DNA of 45,329 nt from an uncultured Eubacterium sp. Lineage in GTDB: Bacteria > Bacillota > Clostridia > Lachnospirales > Lachnospiraceae. The DNA lies in assembly GCA_947384955.1 (NCBI GenBank), contig CANDJC010000025.1, positions 1 to 45,329 on the forward strand, read 5' to 3'. Positions 10,766 to 17,300 of the stretch are shown here, in pieces. The notes under the pieces are model-generated. The model was not told the DNA's origin and ran no database searches. It saw nothing but the letters and a program-made list of their open reading frames with translations. Made by a program: the position numbers and the translations under genes. Position 1 is the stretch's first letter; each line of letters starts with the position of its first letter.

Positions 10766-12982
10766 ATGTGGAAAGATTATTCATCCGGTTACATAAAAAA
10801 CAACCGTTCCTCCAGCTTATCTGTCATGACAGCGGCATTTATTTCGGCGCTGTTTTTATCCCTGCTGTGCGGGCTGTTTTATAATGCATGGAAATATGAG
10901 ACAGAAAGAATTGTACAGGAGGAAGGCGGATGGCACAGCCGGATTATGGGAGAATTTACACAGGAAGATGCCGTAACGGTTCAAAATTTTGCCAGTGTAA
11001 AAGATGCGGTCATAAACAGGGACGAAAAGAAAGGCACGGCCCGGGCTATCGATATTTATTTTGAGGATATGCATGCTGTTTTTAAAGATACGCCCCGTAT
11101 CGCGGGAAAGATAGGAGCCGGGCCGCAGCAGACGGTTTATCATTATGGGCTGCTGGCAATGTACCTGCTGCGGGATTCGAAAGATACGGCTCCAAGGCTG
11201 CTGCTGCCGCTGTTTCTGCTGATTGTATCAGCAGCTTCGCTTTCGCTGACTGTGATTATTCACAATGCGTTTGCAGTATCCATGAATGCCAGGATTCATC
11301 AGTTTGGTATTTTTTCCAGTATCGGTGCTTCGCCAAAGCAGATTCGGGCATGTCTTTTGCAGGAAGCGGCGGTTTTGTGCAGCGTGCCGGTTATCGCCGG
11401 GAATCTGTGCGGCATTGCGGGCAGCATGGGAATTTTGCAGATGATAAATGTCCTGCTGGGCAGCGGAATCGAAGGACGGCACCGGGCGGTTTTCGGTTAT
11501 CATCCGCTGGTACTGGCGCTGACGCTGTCTGTAACGGTGCTGACCATATGGATGTCAGCGTGGCTGCCGGCCGCAAAGATAAGCCGGATGACACCGCTTG
11601 AAGCAATCCGAAATACAGGTGAGCTGCAGTTAAAGCGCCGGAGACATTCCCGCTTGCTTAAAATGATGTTCGGAGTGGAGGGGGAGCTTGCAGGCAATGC
11701 CTTAAAAGCGCAGAGAAAAGCGCTTCGGACGGCGTCATTATCGCTGAGCGCGGCGTTTCTGGCTTTTACTCTGATGCAGTGCTTTTTTACGCTTTCCGGA
11801 ATCAGCACAAGAGAGACTTATTTTGAAAGGTATCAGGGAGTCTGGGATATCATGGTTACGGTTCAAAATACGCAGGCGGATGCTTTTGAAAAGACGGACG
11901 CCGTTCGGGGGCTTGCCGGAATTAAAAGCGCCATTGTGTATCAGAAGGCGGCAGCTTCGAGGATGATTACAGAGGAGGAGATGAGCGGGGAAATGAAATC
12001 TTTCGGCGGATTTTCCCATGCTTCCAGTCAGTATGTAACAAAGACGGACGGCGGGTGGCTGGTAAATGCCCCGGTTATCATACTGGACGATGACAGCTTT
12101 TTAGCTTACTGTGAGCAGGCCGGCGTGACACCCGGGCTTGACGGGGCAGTGATATTCAATCAGATTCGTGACGTGACAAATCCTGATTTCAGACATCCTG
12201 ACTGGATGCCTTATATCAAAGAAGAAGGAACGGACAGTGTTTTAAGAAAGGCCGGCAGCGAAGAGGGAATGACGGCGCAGATACCGGTTCTTGGCTATAC
12301 CGAAACAGTGCCTCTTTTAAGGGAAGAATATAAGACGCTGGATTATTACGAGCTGGTGCATTTTGTTCCGGTGTCCTTATGGAAAGAGATAAAAGGAAGG
12401 ATAGGAGGAACGGAAGAAGACAGCTATATCTGCGTCCGCTGCGGGGAAAATCCGGCGCTGCAGGACCTGAGTGCGCTTGAAGGTGAGATTCGCCGGACTG
12501 TCAGCGGGACTTATACGATAACATGCGAAAACCGCATCCGGGAATATGAAACGAATCAAAAGCAGATACAGGGAATGATGGCTGTATTTGGCGGATTCTG
12601 CGTCCTGCTTGCGATAACGGGCATTGGCAGTGTGTTTTCGAATACCTTAGGATTCGTGCGTCAGAGGAGGCGGGAGTTTGCGAGGTATCTGTCTGTGGGG
12701 ATGACGATGGCAGGACTGCGGAAGATGTTTTGCATTGAGGCTCTGGCCCTGGCTGTGCGCCCGGTTTTAGTTACCCTTCCTCTGGCGGTGCCTGTGACGG
12801 CGTATATGCTGAAAGCAGGCTATATCGGAACGGGAGAATTCCTGGCTGAGGCACCGTTTGTTCCGGTTATTTTGTTTCTGTCTGCTGTTTTGGCGGCTGT
12901 GGCGCTGGCATATTACTCTGCGTGGCGCAGTGTACGGAAAATCAGTCTGGCAGAGGTTTTAAAAGATGATACCATGATGTGA
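10766..12982 (+). CDS. FtsX-family (BceB-like) ABC permease
   Basis: 738 residues following AGGAGG. An N-terminal helix (SVMTAAFISALFLSLLCGLF), a short outer loop, then three helices of the first FtsX domain (LLLPLFLLIVSAASLSLTVI; LVLALTLSVTVLTIWMSAWL) ending in SRMTPLEAIRN, the usual FtsX boundary. A large extracytoplasmic domain (about 355-600) follows, and a second FtsX domain ends in VRKISLAEVLKD. This fits a MacB/BceB-type mechanotransmission permease working with the ATPase at 10080 and probably the kinase at 8832. Confidence 0.85.
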   Translation: MWKDYSSGYIKNNRSSSLSVMTAAFISALFLSLLCGLFYNAWKYETERIVQEEGGWHSRIMGEFTQEDAVTVQNFASVKDAVINRDEKKGTARAIDIYFEDMHAVFKDTPRIAGKIGAGPQQTVYHYGLLAMYLLRDSKDTAPRLLLPLFLLIVSAASLSLTVIIHNAFAVSMNARIHQFGIFSSIGASPKQIRACLLQEAAVLCSVPVIAGNLCGIAGSMGILQMINVLLGSGIEGRHRAVFGYHPLVLALTLSVTVLTIWMSAWLPAAKISRMTPLEAIRNTGELQLKRRRHSRLLKMMFGVEGELAGNALKAQRKALRTASLSLSAAFLAFTLMQCFFTLSGISTRETYFERYQGVWDIMVTVQNTQADAFEKTDAVRGLAGIKSAIVYQKAAASRMITEEEMSGEMKSFGGFSHASSQYVTKTDGGWLVNAPVIILDDDSFLAYCEQAGVTPGLDGAVIFNQIRDVTNPDFRHPDWMPYIKEEGTDSVLRKAGSEEGMTAQIPVLGYTETVPLLREEYKTLDYYELVHFVPVSLWKEIKGRIGGTEEDSYICVRCGENPALQDLSALEGEIRRTVSGTYTITCENRIREYETNQKQIQGMMAVFGGFCVLLAITGIGSVFSNTLGFVRQRRREFARYLSVGMTMAGLRKMFCIEALALAVRPVLVTLPLAVPVTAYMLKAGYIGTGEFLAEAPFVPVILFLSAVLAAVALAYYSAWRSVRKISLAEVLKDDTMM

Positions 12983-13019
12983 ATTCGCGCATTTAAATGT
13001 AAAAATTCAAAATATATCG

Positions 13020-13047
13020 TTGAAATGCACATGAATTTTGCTATACT
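13020..13047 (+). promoter_or_regulatory. Promoter before the DUF4143-type remnant
   Basis: TTGAAA (13020-13025), a 16-bp spacer and TATACT (13042-13047); TATAAT also starts at 13047. It lies 30 bp before the ATG at 13077 and downstream of the ABC permease stop, so the remnant and the SRAP gene can be transcribed from here. Confidence 0.55.
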
Positions 13048-13076
13048 ATAATCATCCATTTGAAGGAGGACGGATT

Positions 13077-13559
13077 ATGTATAGAAAAATTATGGGTTTT
13101 CTGACAGCATGGAAAGAAAGCGGGCACCGCAAACCGCTGATTCTGCAAGGTGCAGGGCAGGTTGGCAAAACTTATTCTGTTTTAGAATTTGGACGCACGC
13201 ATTATGAAAATGTAGCATATAAAAATCTGGCAGCGGACGATATTCTTTATATGTCAGAGGAGCTGAATGATTTTAAGGGCGGAATGGCCGAAAATTATGT
13301 CAGTGTACATCTTGTCATGAACGGATACAGCGCCTGCTACTGGGAGTCAAAACGGGGTGCGGAAATAGATTTTGTGATTCAAAGGAACGGCCGGCTGATT
13401 CCTGTTGAAGTAAAATCCTCTGATAATACCAGGGCTAAGAGCTTAAAAGTTTATGTGGATACTTATAAGTCTGATTATGCGATTAAAATTTCTGCAAAAA
13501 ATTTTGGATTTGAAGACGGGAAAAAGACGGTTCCGCTTTATGCGGTATTTTGTGTTTAG
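13077..13559 (+). pseudogene. AAA/DUF4143 ATPase with a large in-frame internal deletion
   Basis: The ATG at 13077 follows AAGGAGGA. The 160 residues join the N-terminal Walker A region of this family (LILQGAGQVGKTYSVLEFGR; relatives have GARQVGKT) directly to the C-terminal DUF4143 nuclease-like end (ERGAEIDFVIQ-type text, here SKRGAEIDFVIQRNGRLIP, then VEVKSSDNTRAKSLK). Members of the family are about 420-440 residues, so some 260 residues, including Walker B and the rest of the AAA fold, are absent. The junction lies near 13218-13230 (NVAYKN to LAADDIL). The frame is open, yet ATPase function is very unlikely. Confidence 0.75.
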
Positions 13560-13577
13560 GAAAGGAGCAAAGGAGTC

Positions 13578-14210
13578 ATGTGCGGAAGATTCTATGCAGA
13601 TGATACAACCGTCAGGGAAGCGGAGAGAATCGTGCAGAATGTACAGCTGCAGATACAAAATATGCGTACGGGAGATATTTATCCTTCCCAGAATGCGGGT
13701 ATTCTGACAGGACGTATCCGGCAAAAGAATGTGCAGACGCAGGGCGCCGCAGAGAAACCCGCGCAGGGGCTCTGCCTGGAGGAGATGCACTGGGGCTTTC
13801 CGCGGTATCAAAAGAAAGGGCTGCTTATCAATGCCAGGGCGGAAACGGCACTGGAGCGCAAAATGTTCTGCGACAGCCTGCTGCACAGACGGTGCGTCAT
13901 CCCGGCAGGACACTTTTATGAGTGGGACTGCGATAAGAACAAAGTCATCTTTTATAGAGAAGACAGCCAGGTTTTGTATCTGGCTGGATTTTTTCAAAGA
14001 TTCCAGGAGGAAGAGCGCTTTATCATTCTTACGGCACAGGCCAATGCCTCCGTCAGCCCGGTGCATGACAGGATGCCTCTTATTTTAGAGAAAGCAGAGC
14101 TGCATGACTGGGTTTTCGATAACAGGTTTATGGAGTATGCGCTGCATAAAACGCTGCCGGAACTTGGACGGAAGCAGGAATATGAGCAGCAGTGCCTGGT
14201 TTTTGACTGA
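13578..14210 (+). CDS. SOS response-associated peptidase (SRAP; HMCES/YedK family)
   Basis: 210 residues. Met1 is followed by Cys2 (MCGRFYADD), the residue that forms the thiazolidine crosslink to abasic DNA after Met removal. Other family marks are NARAETALERKMF, the HRRCVIPAGHFYEW strand with the catalytic Glu, and HDRMPLIL with the catalytic His. The protein shields abasic sites in single-stranded DNA. AAAGGAG ends about 6 nt before the ATG. It stands 18 nt after the DUF4143 remnant and near LexA-like boxes at 14392-14426, although those boxes face the other strand. Confidence 0.9.
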   Translation: MCGRFYADDTTVREAERIVQNVQLQIQNMRTGDIYPSQNAGILTGRIRQKNVQTQGAAEKPAQGLCLEEMHWGFPRYQKKGLLINARAETALERKMFCDSLLHRRCVIPAGHFYEWDCDKNKVIFYREDSQVLYLAGFFQRFQEEERFIILTAQANASVSPVHDRMPLILEKAELHDWVFDNRFMEYALHKTLPELGRKQEYEQQCLVFD

Positions 14211-14285
14211 AGCATAAAGCGGACGGTTTTGAAACAGAACGGAAATCATCATGTGGATGATAATTTTAGTCAGTTCAGGGCGGAT

Positions 14286-14320
14286 AAAAAATATGGGAAT
14301 ATACAGAAGTATATTCCCAT
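14286..14320 (-). terminator. Strong Rho-independent terminator
   Basis: ATGGGAATATAC (14293-14304) pairs perfectly with GTATATTCCCAT (14309-14320) over an AGAA/UUCU loop. On the minus strand the stem is followed by ATTTTTT. It ends the short transcript starting near 14375 and may also end mazF read-through. Confidence 0.85.
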
Positions 14321-14375
14321 TTGAAAAAGCCTTTCAGGGCCAAATGCTCTTTCGAGCTTGATAACATTTAAATGT
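14286..14375 (-). ncRNA. Candidate SOS-regulated short RNA
   Basis: A consensus minus-strand promoter (14382-14409) would start transcription near 14375, and the terminator at 14320-14286 would end it after about 90 nt. The RNA would contain GCUC-GAAA-GAGC (14357-14346), a four-base stem with a GNRA loop, a small GCC/GGC stem followed by five U (near 14339-14324), and the 12-bp terminator stem. A 30-codon open frame (from ATG near 14366) passes through the region but has no ribosome site, so a non-coding or leader-peptide role are both open. No family is recognised. Confidence 0.5.
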
Positions 14376-14381
14376 ATATTT

Positions 14382-14426
14382 ATTATAACACCTATCGTAT
14401 GTTTGTCAATTCAGAACGTATGTTTG
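14382..14426 (-). promoter_or_regulatory. Minus-strand sigma-A promoter with two LexA-like boxes
   Basis: TTGACA (14409-14404), 16-bp spacer, TATAAT (14387-14382). GAACGTATGTTT (14414-14425) matches the Firmicute SOS box GAAC-N4-GTTC at seven of eight fixed positions. A second site (14392-14405) shares the ten bases CGTATGTTTG and is offset by 21 bp, two helical turns; it lies in the promoter spacer. Binding there would block RNA polymerase. LexA control is inferred. Confidence 0.6.
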
Positions 14427-14962
14427 ATATCGAGATGAGACAGTATGGAACGATTGATTTCTTCCAGCTTGTCAGTGCTGAGTTTTCCTATTTTCTTATC
14501 CAGTCTTGCTTTATCAATGGTTGTAATATCGGTAAAAATAATTCTTGAAGGATTTTTATCGAGCAGTCCTTCTTCTAAATCTTCATTTATTAATTTTATC
14601 TGGTAATGAGGATTGATTTTCCATCCATCTCCTTCAATAGGCAGTACCGTAACTTTTTCACCATATACATTACTGGAAAATCCCTGTATAATGATAACCA
14701 GATGGTTACTGCTTAATTCGCTTCCGGCATTTTCTGTGATACAGGCATTGTATATTTCACCTTTAAAAACCTTGATGGGATGATATTTCTTAGGATGATT
14801 ATTTCTTAAACATCTGTTTTTGGCAGATTTTATATTTATAGAGCATAAAACGGGTATTTGTCTTATATAAGAAATAATTTTTTCAATATTGTCACTTGCA
14901 ATTATCTGAGTTACGCTGTTGACATGATGAGAGTATTCTTTTATTTTGCTTACGATATCCAA
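14411..14962 (-). CDS. MazF/PemK-like toxin-family protein with N-terminal extension
   Basis: 183 residues from a TTG start at 14962; AAGGAG lies 9 nt before it and the only nearby ATG is out of frame. The C-terminal two thirds look like a MazF/PemK barrel: FKGEIYNACI in the first strand, NHLVIIIQGFSSNVYGEKVTV-type core, LDKNPSRIIFTDITTIDKARL and a final helix. The first 60 residues form an extra helical region. The gene is more AT-rich than its neighbours, which suggests horizontal origin. No antitoxin gene is seen beside it. Promoter elements upstream (a TATAAT-like box near 15015) are not certain. Confidence 0.7.
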   Translation of the reverse strand: MDIVSKIKEYSHHVNSVTQIIASDNIEKIISYIRQIPVLCSINIKSAKNRCLRNNHPKKYHPIKVFKGEIYNACITENAGSELSSNHLVIIIQGFSSNVYGEKVTVLPIEGDGWKINPHYQIKLINEDLEEGLLDKNPSRIIFTDITTIDKARLDKKIGKLSTDKLEEINRSILSHLDIKHTF

Positions 14963-15088
14963 TTATATCATCTCCTTTGATAAAGAATTAGATAAAAAGA
15001 TTAAGATAAAAACATTATATACTATAATACTACAAATTTCTACTATGTTTTTTATTTTGAAAAATTAAACAAGATTCTCCAATTAGTA

Positions 15089-15139
15089 TTGTGCTTTGCC
15101 TGAATCTGGGTTTATAATAAATATAGAAAAATATTCAGG
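15089..15139 (+). promoter_or_regulatory. Promoter for the EAL protein with an inverted repeat around the -10
   Basis: TTGTGC (15089-15094), 18-bp spacer, TATAAT (15113-15118). CCTGAAT (15099-15105) and ATTCAGG (15133-15139) form an inverted repeat centred on the -10 and start site, as an operator might. AGGGGGA at 15142-15148 is the ribosome site for 15155. Confidence 0.45.
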
Positions 15140-15154
15140 TCAGGGGGATTTCGC

Positions 15155-16918
15155 ATGGATAAGGAAAGCGGCGCAGGCGCACGGGACAGCCAGGAACGTT
15201 ATAAGGAAGCGGAGCTGTTAAAAGACAGCCGGATTTTGGAACACACACATTCTTTTATCGTAGAATATAATTTCAAGACAAAACAGTGCTACATAGACCC
15301 GGCACAGCGAAAGCATGTATACGGGGACTGGAACAGTGAATACAGTGAAAAAAGAAATTTCAGCCGGATTGCTTTAAAAGAAGATATTCCCAAATTAAAC
15401 GAACTGTTTGACTTTACAGGATTAAAGCCGGGAGACTCGAAAAGCACGGCGGCAAGGTTTTATGTCAAATCCCATACATATGAATGGTTCCGGGTAAGCC
15501 TGATTTGCTACGGCGAGCCGGACGGGGAGATTGAAAGGGTGCTCATTACCTTTACAAACGCGGAGCAGGAGCTAGAGACCGTGCAGAAGCTGAAGTTTCT
15601 GCTAGCGAGAGACCCGCTGACCCATATGCCGAATATGGACAGCTTCCGGCAGATGACGGAGGCGATGATTCAGCGGCACCCGGATTTAAGCTATGCGTTA
15701 ATCCGCATGGATATTGACAAATTCCGCATGATTAACCAGATGTACGGGACAAAGGAGGGAGACAATATCCTCCGCTACATCGGGGTAAAAATCCAGGAAT
15801 GGATCGGGCCGCTGCAGGAAGAGGACAATGACAGTACGTATGGCAGGATATCTTCGGATATTTTTTATGTCTGCATGCCGGCAAATGCCAGTGATATTCA
15901 GGAGATTATCGATTTTATCCAGGCGGCTCTCAGGGCTTATCCGATTAAATTTGAAATGATTATGTCATTCGGCGTTTACATTACATGTGAAGCGGACCGC
16001 ACGGAGCATGTATCGGTATCTACGCTGATGGACCGCGCGGCGTCGGCTCAAAAGACCGTGAAAAACAGCTATGTCAATCATGTAGCCTATTATGACCATT
16101 TAATCCGCAAAAAGGAAGTGGCTGAGAGGATTATTGTATCGGAAATGAAAAAAGCGCTGGAAACGGAGCAGTTTCAGGTATATTTACAGCCGAAGTGCGA
16201 GATGGATACAGGAAAGATTATCGGCTCGGAAGCGCTGGTGCGCTGGATTCATCCGTCCCAGGGAATTATTTCGCCGGGAGAATTTATACCGGTATTTGAA
16301 AAGAACGGATTTATTTCAGAGCTGGATTATTATATGCTGCGCTCAAGCTGTGAGATTATCAGAAGGTGGATTGACGAAGGAATCGGGCTGCATCCGATTT
16401 CCGTGAATGTATCCAGGACGGATTTGTATAACCCGAATCTGTTAGAGCAGATTAAAGAATGTGTGGACAAGTATGAGGTTCCTCATGACCTGATTGAATT
16501 TGAACTGACGGAAAGCGCGTTTGTATCGGACAATATGCAGCTTTACAATCTGGCAAAGCTGCTGCAGGAAAATCATTTCCGTGTGCTGATGGATGATTTT
16601 GGAAGCGGCTATTCTTCGCTGAATTCCTTAAGAGAGATTCCGGTGGACGTACTGAAAATCGATTTGAAATTCCTTCCGCCGTCTTCGGATGACAAACGCG
16701 GAAACGTGATTCTGCATTCCATTGTAGATATGGCAAAGCGCCTGGGGCTGGATGTGATTGTAGAAGGCGTAGAAACGGCAGGGCAGGCAGAATTCCTGTT
16801 ATCGATTGGCTGCAGGAATGCGCAGGGATTTTATTTTTACCGTCCGATGCCTGTTTCAGAATACGAACAGTGCCTGGATAAGCCAAAAGAAACCGGGCTT
16901 AGCGGCTGCGTACAGTAA
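15155..16918 (+). CDS. Cyclic-di-GMP phosphodiesterase with degenerate GGDEF domain
   Basis: 587 residues. A PAS-like sensory part (about 25-130) comes first. The GGDEF domain (about 145-300) has the DIDKFRMINQMYG helix, but its active site reads ISSDIF where RxGGDEF is expected, so cyclase activity should be lost. The EAL domain (about 325-580) has SEALVRW, the metal-binding N in SVNVSRTDL, E in IEFELTES, DDFGSGYSS and EGVE, all needed for catalysis, so it should degrade c-di-GMP, perhaps with the dead GGDEF domain sensing GTP. The next genes encode CheY and CheC-like proteins in the same direction. Confidence 0.88.
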   Translation: MDKESGAGARDSQERYKEAELLKDSRILEHTHSFIVEYNFKTKQCYIDPAQRKHVYGDWNSEYSEKRNFSRIALKEDIPKLNELFDFTGLKPGDSKSTAARFYVKSHTYEWFRVSLICYGEPDGEIERVLITFTNAEQELETVQKLKFLLARDPLTHMPNMDSFRQMTEAMIQRHPDLSYALIRMDIDKFRMINQMYGTKEGDNILRYIGVKIQEWIGPLQEEDNDSTYGRISSDIFYVCMPANASDIQEIIDFIQAALRAYPIKFEMIMSFGVYITCEADRTEHVSVSTLMDRAASAQKTVKNSYVNHVAYYDHLIRKKEVAERIIVSEMKKALETEQFQVYLQPKCEMDTGKIIGSEALVRWIHPSQGIISPGEFIPVFEKNGFISELDYYMLRSSCEIIRRWIDEGIGLHPISVNVSRTDLYNPNLLEQIKECVDKYEVPHDLIEFELTESAFVSDNMQLYNLAKLLQENHFRVLMDDFGSGYSSLNSLREIPVDVLKIDLKFLPPSSDDKRGNVILHSIVDMAKRLGLDVIVEGVETAGQAEFLLSIGCRNAQGFYFYRPMPVSEYEQCLDKPKETGLSGCVQ

Positions 16919-16934
16919 AAAGGAGGAATCATTT

Positions 16935-17300
16935 ATGGAAAAACTGATTTTGGTAGTGGATGACGCGAAATTTGCCAGGGTCATTGCGAAAAAGGCACTG
17001 CAGAACGCCGGATATGAAAATATCATAGAAGCAAAAACAGCAAAAGAAGCGCTGGAGCTGTTTCAGGAGAAAAAACCGGACCTAACATTATTAGACATTA
17101 CGCTCCCGGATAATACAGACCTGACGCTGCTAAAAAAACTGCTCGAAACAGACCCGTCAGCCTCGATTGTGATTAATTCCGCAATCGGACAGGAGCTGAT
17201 TATTACGGATGCGATTAAGGCAGGGGCAAAGGATTTTATTATCAAGCCGTTTGAGGAAAAACAGTTTATCGAGACTGTGAACAAAGCACTCGGCGTCTGA
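16935..17300 (+). CDS. Stand-alone receiver domain protein (CheY-like)
   Basis: 121 residues, a receiver domain only. Acidic pocket DD at 9-10, phosphorylated Asp54 (TLLDITLP), Ser82 at the switch Thr/Ser position (VINSAIGQ) and Lys104 (FIIKPF). AGGAGG lies 8 nt before the ATG and 2 nt after the stop of the EAL gene, so the two are co-transcribed. Without an output domain it must act by protein contact, and the CheC-like gene that follows is a plausible phosphatase for it. Confidence 0.9.
   Translation: MEKLILVVDDAKFARVIAKKALQNAGYENIIEAKTAKEALELFQEKKPDLTLLDITLPDNTDLTLLKKLLETDPSASIVINSAIGQELIITDAIKAGAKDFIIKPFEEKQFIETVNKALGV

Follow-up and report, generated by a model that had tools for sequence, protein, structure and literature searches.

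In a 45,329-nt stretch of DNA from an uncultured Eubacterium sp. of the Lachnospiraceae, which was analysed at its full length and is referred to as the window, the minus strand between a mazF-like gene and an SRAP gene carries a consensus promoter, a predicted LexA box and an intrinsic terminator. These elements are best read as a LexA-controlled, SOS-inducible non-coding RNA of ~90 nt, the body of which would be common to a phage-like element, and we give this reading as a whole about an even chance. As to its parts, LexA control appears likely from the sequence, and transcription is likely because the predicted RNA has a consensus promoter as well as a terminator. The elements of the locus are listed here; G142 is from another Lachnospiraceae genus.

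14411 to 14962, minus strand: mazF/pemK-like gene with a TTG start and an N-terminal extension of ~65 residues (Pfam PF02452, E 6.7e-13; MazF chains in PDB)
14413 to 14426, no strand assigned: predicted LexA box 1, CAAACATACGTTCT on the minus strand, best matrix score in the window
14404 to 14409, minus strand: -35 hexamer TTGACA, 6/6 match
14392 to 14405, no strand assigned: second LexA-like site (site 2), CAAACATACGATAG, half-degraded, in the promoter spacer, matrix rank 10
14382 to 14387, minus strand: -10 hexamer TATAAT, 6/6 match, TG before the -10, spacer of 16
14286 to 14376, minus strand: predicted small RNA of ~90 nt, start placed near 14375 from the -10 box
14286 to 14363, minus strand: stretch homologous to the end of the G142 intergenic region, 78% over 78 bp, E 1.6e-9
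14346 to 14357, minus strand: small stem with GAAA tetraloop (GCUC-GAAA-GAGC), 3/4 pairs kept in G142, not predicted there by energy
14328 to 14341, minus strand: second small stem GGCC-CUGAAA-GGCU, then a U run; 4/4 pairs possible in G142 with one C-G to U-G change
14286 to 14320, minus strand: intrinsic terminator with a 12-bp stem at 14320-14293, then A and a run of six U at 14291-14286
13578 to 14210, plus strand: SRAP gene (DNA repair), convergent with the RNA (Pfam PF02586, E 3.6e-34)

A consensus promoter flanked and overlapped by LexA-type sites

The minus-strand TTGACA-16-TATAAT promoter reported in the initial annotation is present at 14409-14382 with 12/12 bases, and it is the only 12/12 sigma-70 promoter in the window when spacers of 16-18 are scanned. 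LexA-type sites were scored with a matrix built from nine sites with the full RAAC-N4-GTTY core, which came from 5 of 13 upstream regions (those of lexA in 12 genomes of the genus and that of recA in the own genome); the full core is absent from the other eight, including the own lexA region. Among the 45,316 14-mers of the window, box 1 ranked first and site 2 tenth. Both sites had been noticed before: the near-perfect LexA box is found at 14426-14413, where it sits just upstream of the -35 hexamer and covers the final codons of the mazF-like gene; the second site is found at 14405-14392, 21 bp from box 1, with its first ten bases common to both sites and its right half lost. A LexA box overlapping or adjoining the promoter, as expected of a LexA-controlled small RNA, is present at the level of sequence.

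In 300 dinucleotide shuffles of the window, a 12/12 promoter arose in 5 and a box scoring at least as high as box 1 in 10, and both arose together in 0. Either regulatory motif alone can arise by chance; it is their joint occurrence that is rare. Similarly, sites with a LexA-type core with at most one mismatch number 10 in the window vs 14 expected, which carries no significance by itself, and a looser LexA pattern had 18 matches genome-wide vs 17 for the reversed control.

In 11/12 genomes of the genus, the own one included (loci L017-L023 and L025-L028), lexA is preceded by CGAACAnATnTTC(A/T)GAATAnnnGTTTG or a slight variant, which forms a compact tandem operator. On the plus strand of the window, 14410-14426 reads TTCAGAACGTATGTTTG and agrees at 12 to 15 of 17 bases with each of the operator copies of equal length (n=10); the agreement with the majority sequence of these copies is 14/17 bases. 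Because 14410-14426 is the best fit to the operator on either strand of the window, we tie box 1 to lexA's own operator. Moreover, L020 has a site close to lexA (CAAACGTATGTTCTGAAT) to which box 1 and its flank (CAAACATACGTTCTGAAT) correspond. The lexA regions of L017, L018, L020 and L026 also contain a divergent promoter of the TTGACAAACRTNNGTTC..TATAAT type, and in each of them one matrix site overlaps that promoter.

The same arrangement, TTGACAAACRTNNGTTC followed by TATAAT, occurs at 8 of 123 fetched loci, corresponding to seven distinct places. Six of these belong to the genus of the window, including one from the own genome; the seventh (L048) is from a different genus. As judged by eye, the first ORFs downstream of these SOS-type promoters encode similar small proteins, and a LysM domain was confirmed in two of the seven, the two that were tested (L060 and L048); we take these LysM proteins to be YneA-like. 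The LysM gene of the own genome (L060, 147-545) lies behind a two-box SOS-type promoter and is probably an SOS division inhibitor gene. The promoters of the LysM genes have the layout TTGACAAAC box TATAAT, which is the skeleton of the window promoter as well, and site 2 occupies the same place as their spacer box. They differ from the window promoter in their intact spacer box and in the protein genes that they drive, whereas no gene lies behind the window promoter and its spacer box is half lost; unlike this spacer box, the box upstream of the window promoter is strong. In total, the best box of the window lying beside the promoter, the fit of this box to the lexA operator and the SOS-promoter layout of the genus support the putative LexA-type control that the initial annotation had put forward.

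The predicted transcript is best read as non-coding

The perfect 12-bp terminator stem, described earlier as lying ~55 bp past the start, is present, and the terminator begins about 55 nt past the inferred start. The whole transcript folds with a z of -4.6 and, without the terminator, with a z of -0.87; thus, the low z of the transcript comes from the terminator. Two further stems had been proposed. Both are present in the window sequence, but their conservation and stability are weak in G142 and folding energies lend them no support: their stability is not unusual in the window (z -0.87) or in G142 (z +1.21), and they are not predicted for G142. With the arms placed by hand in only these two sequences, 3/4 pairs of the first stem, 4/4 of the second and 10/12 of the terminator are kept between the window and G142. 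What is conserved between the two is sequence, largely that of loops and linkers, plus the terminator.

A product of 30 residues had been considered as an alternative to an RNA, and an ATG at 14367-14365 indeed opens 30 codons in a frame that is partly similar in G142 (EHLALKGFF vs EHLAVKGFL). However, the stop codon (14277-14275) lies past the U run of the terminator, no ribosome site is visible upstream of the ORF, and the relative in G142 has an in-frame TAA in the same frame. Because of the stop beyond the terminator and the TAA in the relative, the transcript is best read as non-coding, and the chance that it encodes a 30-residue SOS peptide appears close to negligible. The proposal of a short terminated RNA therefore stands as a prediction as far as the terminator and a body with a homologue in another genus are concerned, but the peptide part of it fails.

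Rfam models gave no match in the window at gathering scores and, at relaxed thresholds, two sub-threshold matches only (E 0.58 and 1.1). Two resemblances of the RNA body were rejected. It was compared with the end of a type II CRISPR tracrRNA, a likeness for which Rfam gave no supporting match. In addition, 28 bases of the body match at E about 0.045 in two genomes of the genus in a gene read as alaS; since a third genome has a better match in another gene, this resemblance was treated as chance.

The RNA body has a relative in another genus

A BLAST search of 14286-14440 against 397 genomes of the family gave matches in nine. The window itself aside, the RNA body is covered in G142 alone, and the remaining matches fall on the promoter with the start region or on part of the terminator. 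The local alignment of the window with G142, which includes a weak gapped upstream stretch, scored 266 vs at most 211 in 300 shuffles. A covariance model made from the two sequences matched strongly in 2/397 genomes of the family and, among 345 relatives of G142, in G142 only, in both cases with filters that lose weak matches. Matches to the model at 25-31 bits in five other genomes of the family were left uncounted, the core being missing from the alignments, and a match at 28.6 bits in G529, from another family of the order, was not counted either. The covariation search in Lachnospiraceae that the initial annotation had suggested as a check thus brought one homologue of the body, but the group has only two members and the small stems are weak in G142.

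Pattern scans for the body gave no match in viral contigs and eight loci in genome contigs, of which only L085, apparently the G142 record itself, matched the model, and no further member was added. BLAST of the RNA against phages and plasmids gave only weak matches of the terminator region to six Enterococcus, Listeria and Acinetobacter phage records (E 0.8), which were taken as chance after two of the six records had been inspected. Among the 12 other genomes of the genus, none shows more than 28 bases of the body, and no LexA box was found near the relative in G142 (best matrix score 6.1 vs 18.4 in the window). The promoter and box are not conserved jointly with the RNA, given that the body is absent at length from these 12 genomes and that there is no box at G142.

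The relative ends a folded intergenic region in a phage-like stretch

In the ORF listing of G142, the homologue falls between ORFs of 79 aa and 60 aa that are 491 bases apart. Plus-strand ORFs wholly inside this gap are at most 37 aa long, and an 83-aa minus-strand ORF overlaps it. The contig carries an integrase and a tail tape-measure gene. Bases 1136-1585 of this locus (L045), including the homologous end, fold with a z of -6.9. Because neither a consensus-type promoter nor a LexA box precedes the homologous end, this end would appear to close a longer RNA in G142. The upstream part of the G142 region has a second copy in G133 (70%, E 9.5e-18), and the gene order is similar in both, i.e. 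a large protein (1010/1091 aa), a small HTH gene, the RNA and the tape-measure gene; 9 of 67 predicted pairs of the large region are changed on both sides between G142 and G133. The G133 copy is without the window-like tail, the model finding nothing in L122 up to E 10, and the tail is therefore considered a separable module, which would stand behind a large RNA in G142 and behind an SOS-type promoter in the window.

L045 1150-1500 on the plus strand and L122 10870-11230 on the minus strand represent a structured intergenic region of ~350 nt common to phage-like stretches of two Lachnospiraceae genera; this region has no Rfam match and may correspond to a new large RNA of phages. In G133, a 91-aa ORF lies on the strand opposite the structured region. 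Scans of viral contigs with patterns of the large RNA gave either no match or L123, which aligned no better than shuffled sequence, and viral contigs held no relatives of the G142 1010-aa protein or the G142 MazF protein.

Neighbouring genes

Next to both copies of the RNA tail, at most 1 kb away, there is a PemK/MazF-family gene; two cases of such proximity prove nothing. The MazF-like toxins of the window and G142 are barely alike (24% over 45 residues), and no PemK/MazF was found among the four proteins tested between the RNA and the tape-measure gene in G133. For the MazF-like protein of the window, none of the 396 other genomes of the family gave a match at E 1e-10 and no relatives were found in viral contigs or phages; the best relative on plasmids, from Paraclostridium sordellii, is 33% identical. 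No antitoxin was noticed beside the mazF-like gene.

Pairing of the RNA body with mazF, SRAP or the start of GGDEF-EAL did not exceed shuffled controls. A type I toxin-antitoxin RNA was rejected, as the energies of duplexes with mazF fell within the range of 100 shuffles. In type III toxin-antitoxin systems, a tandem-repeat RNA lies upstream of the toxin gene. This candidate was likewise rejected, as the RNA here lies downstream of mazF and contains no repeat; a repeat search of 13500-15200 found a single two-copy 14-nt tandem pair at 14982-15009.

SRAP is present in 5 of the 12 other genomes of the genus. The 3' flanks of these five genes (four of 400 bases and one of 113) contain neither the core nor a 12/12 promoter and, therefore, the RNA does not travel with SRAP. 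An apparently truncated AAA_14/DUF4143 gene (13038-13559) lies directly before the SRAP gene in the same intergenic gap, and blastn of 13200-15200 against plasmids gave one match, which covers the AAA_14/DUF4143 part only.

Proposed mechanism and alternative explanations

We infer LexA binding, transcription, the start site and the mode of action as follows. In undamaged cells, LexA would occupy box 1, which is the strong site and precedes the -35 hexamer, and perhaps also the spacer site, and the consensus promoter would be shut. Following DNA damage, LexA would be cleaved and RNA polymerase would start near 14375, giving an untranslated RNA of ~90 nt that would end at the terminator (14320-14286). 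The RNA body would share an ancestor with the G142 homologue, which closes an intergenic region of phage-like DNA in another Lachnospiraceae genus, and the RNA would most likely function in trans or as a decoy via the conserved UUAUCAA, AGCAUUUGG and UGAAAGGCUUUUU, and not via the small stems. More specifically, a captured end module of a phage RNA could have come under LexA control and be made at prophage induction, and could then serve as a decoy vs the phage RNA or a partner, or work with the MazF-like nuclease; we give this elaboration a slim chance.

The main alternative is that the promoter is a leftover SOS promoter of the LysM-gene type, which lost its gene and now reads into a terminator-bearing mobile fragment, in which case the RNA would be idle. 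A spacer box that is half degraded in a layout that nevertheless equals that of the LysM-gene promoters would be in line with such a history, as would the absence of the body at length from the 12 other genomes of the genus and the apparently truncated AAA_14/DUF4143 gene in the same gap; however, the promoter still has 12/12 bases, box 1 is intact, and the body keeps 78% identity to its relative in the other genus, loops and linkers included. We consider this alternative a considerable, though minority, possibility.

The hairpin could also be the terminator of the mazF-like gene, and any small RNA would then be a processed mRNA 3' end. DinR, which derives from the dinI mRNA, sets a precedent for such an origin, and a scan of 12000-17000 found no other minus-strand terminator between the mazF stop (14411) and 14293; still, a consensus promoter between the mazF stop and the RNA would be superfluous, and we regard this origin as unlikely. 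Finally, the promoter might respond to another repressor, as some regulator genes elsewhere carry TTGACAAACATAC followed by a different palindrome. L046, L049 and L051 have the same -35 region and spacer start as the window, and the proteins beside these sites appear to be of the TetR type; however, the window lacks their palindrome, and box 1 matches both the L020 lexA site and the lexA operator, so that another repressor seems very improbable. Our preferred reading remains that of an SOS-inducible small RNA controlled by LexA.

Relation to known systems

IstR-2 is encoded at the type I toxin-antitoxin locus of tisB and is directly LexA-controlled. The initial annotation knew of no SOS-induced short RNA of this kind; however, IstR-2 in E. 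coli and DinR in Klebsiella are SOS-induced small RNAs. IstR-2 is a short RNA switched on by DNA damage (PMC3009722), as predicted for the window RNA; it comes from another phylum and has another sequence. DinR is a LexA-governed small RNA that is cut from the dinI mRNA 3' end and depends on Hfq (PMC10907235). DinR is thus under LexA control, as is predicted for the window RNA, and differs from it in being processed from the dinI mRNA 3' end, whereas the window RNA has its own predicted promoter. In the same study, no other small RNA gene was both SOS-box-linked and Hfq-enriched in the Klebsiella data (PMC10907235).

Other studies report that 28/629 non-coding RNAs rise with mitomycin C in Vibrio cholerae (PMC5963079) and that LexA bound 16/20 tested fragments chosen by GAAC-N4-GTTY-type motifs in C. 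difficile (PMC4234289). Among the papers listed on LexA or SOS small RNAs, no title or abstract opening named a LexA- or SOS-controlled small RNA in Lachnospiraceae.

The GOLLD and ROOL phage RNAs (PMC12286853) resemble the relative in G142 insofar as that RNA end is part of a large, folded intergenic region within phage-like DNA. The difference is that the G142 region, of about 400 nt, has no Rfam match and that only the final ~80 nt occur in the window; the Rfam GOLLD and ROOL models had no match in the window, L045, L072, L073 or L122 10500-11500. If our reading is true, the window would encode a stand-alone LexA-controlled small RNA in Lachnospiraceae and, through the kinship of this RNA with a phage-like RNA region, SOS induction would be connected with phage RNA biology. 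As damage-induced small RNAs are known elsewhere, the window RNA therefore probably adds to a known class.
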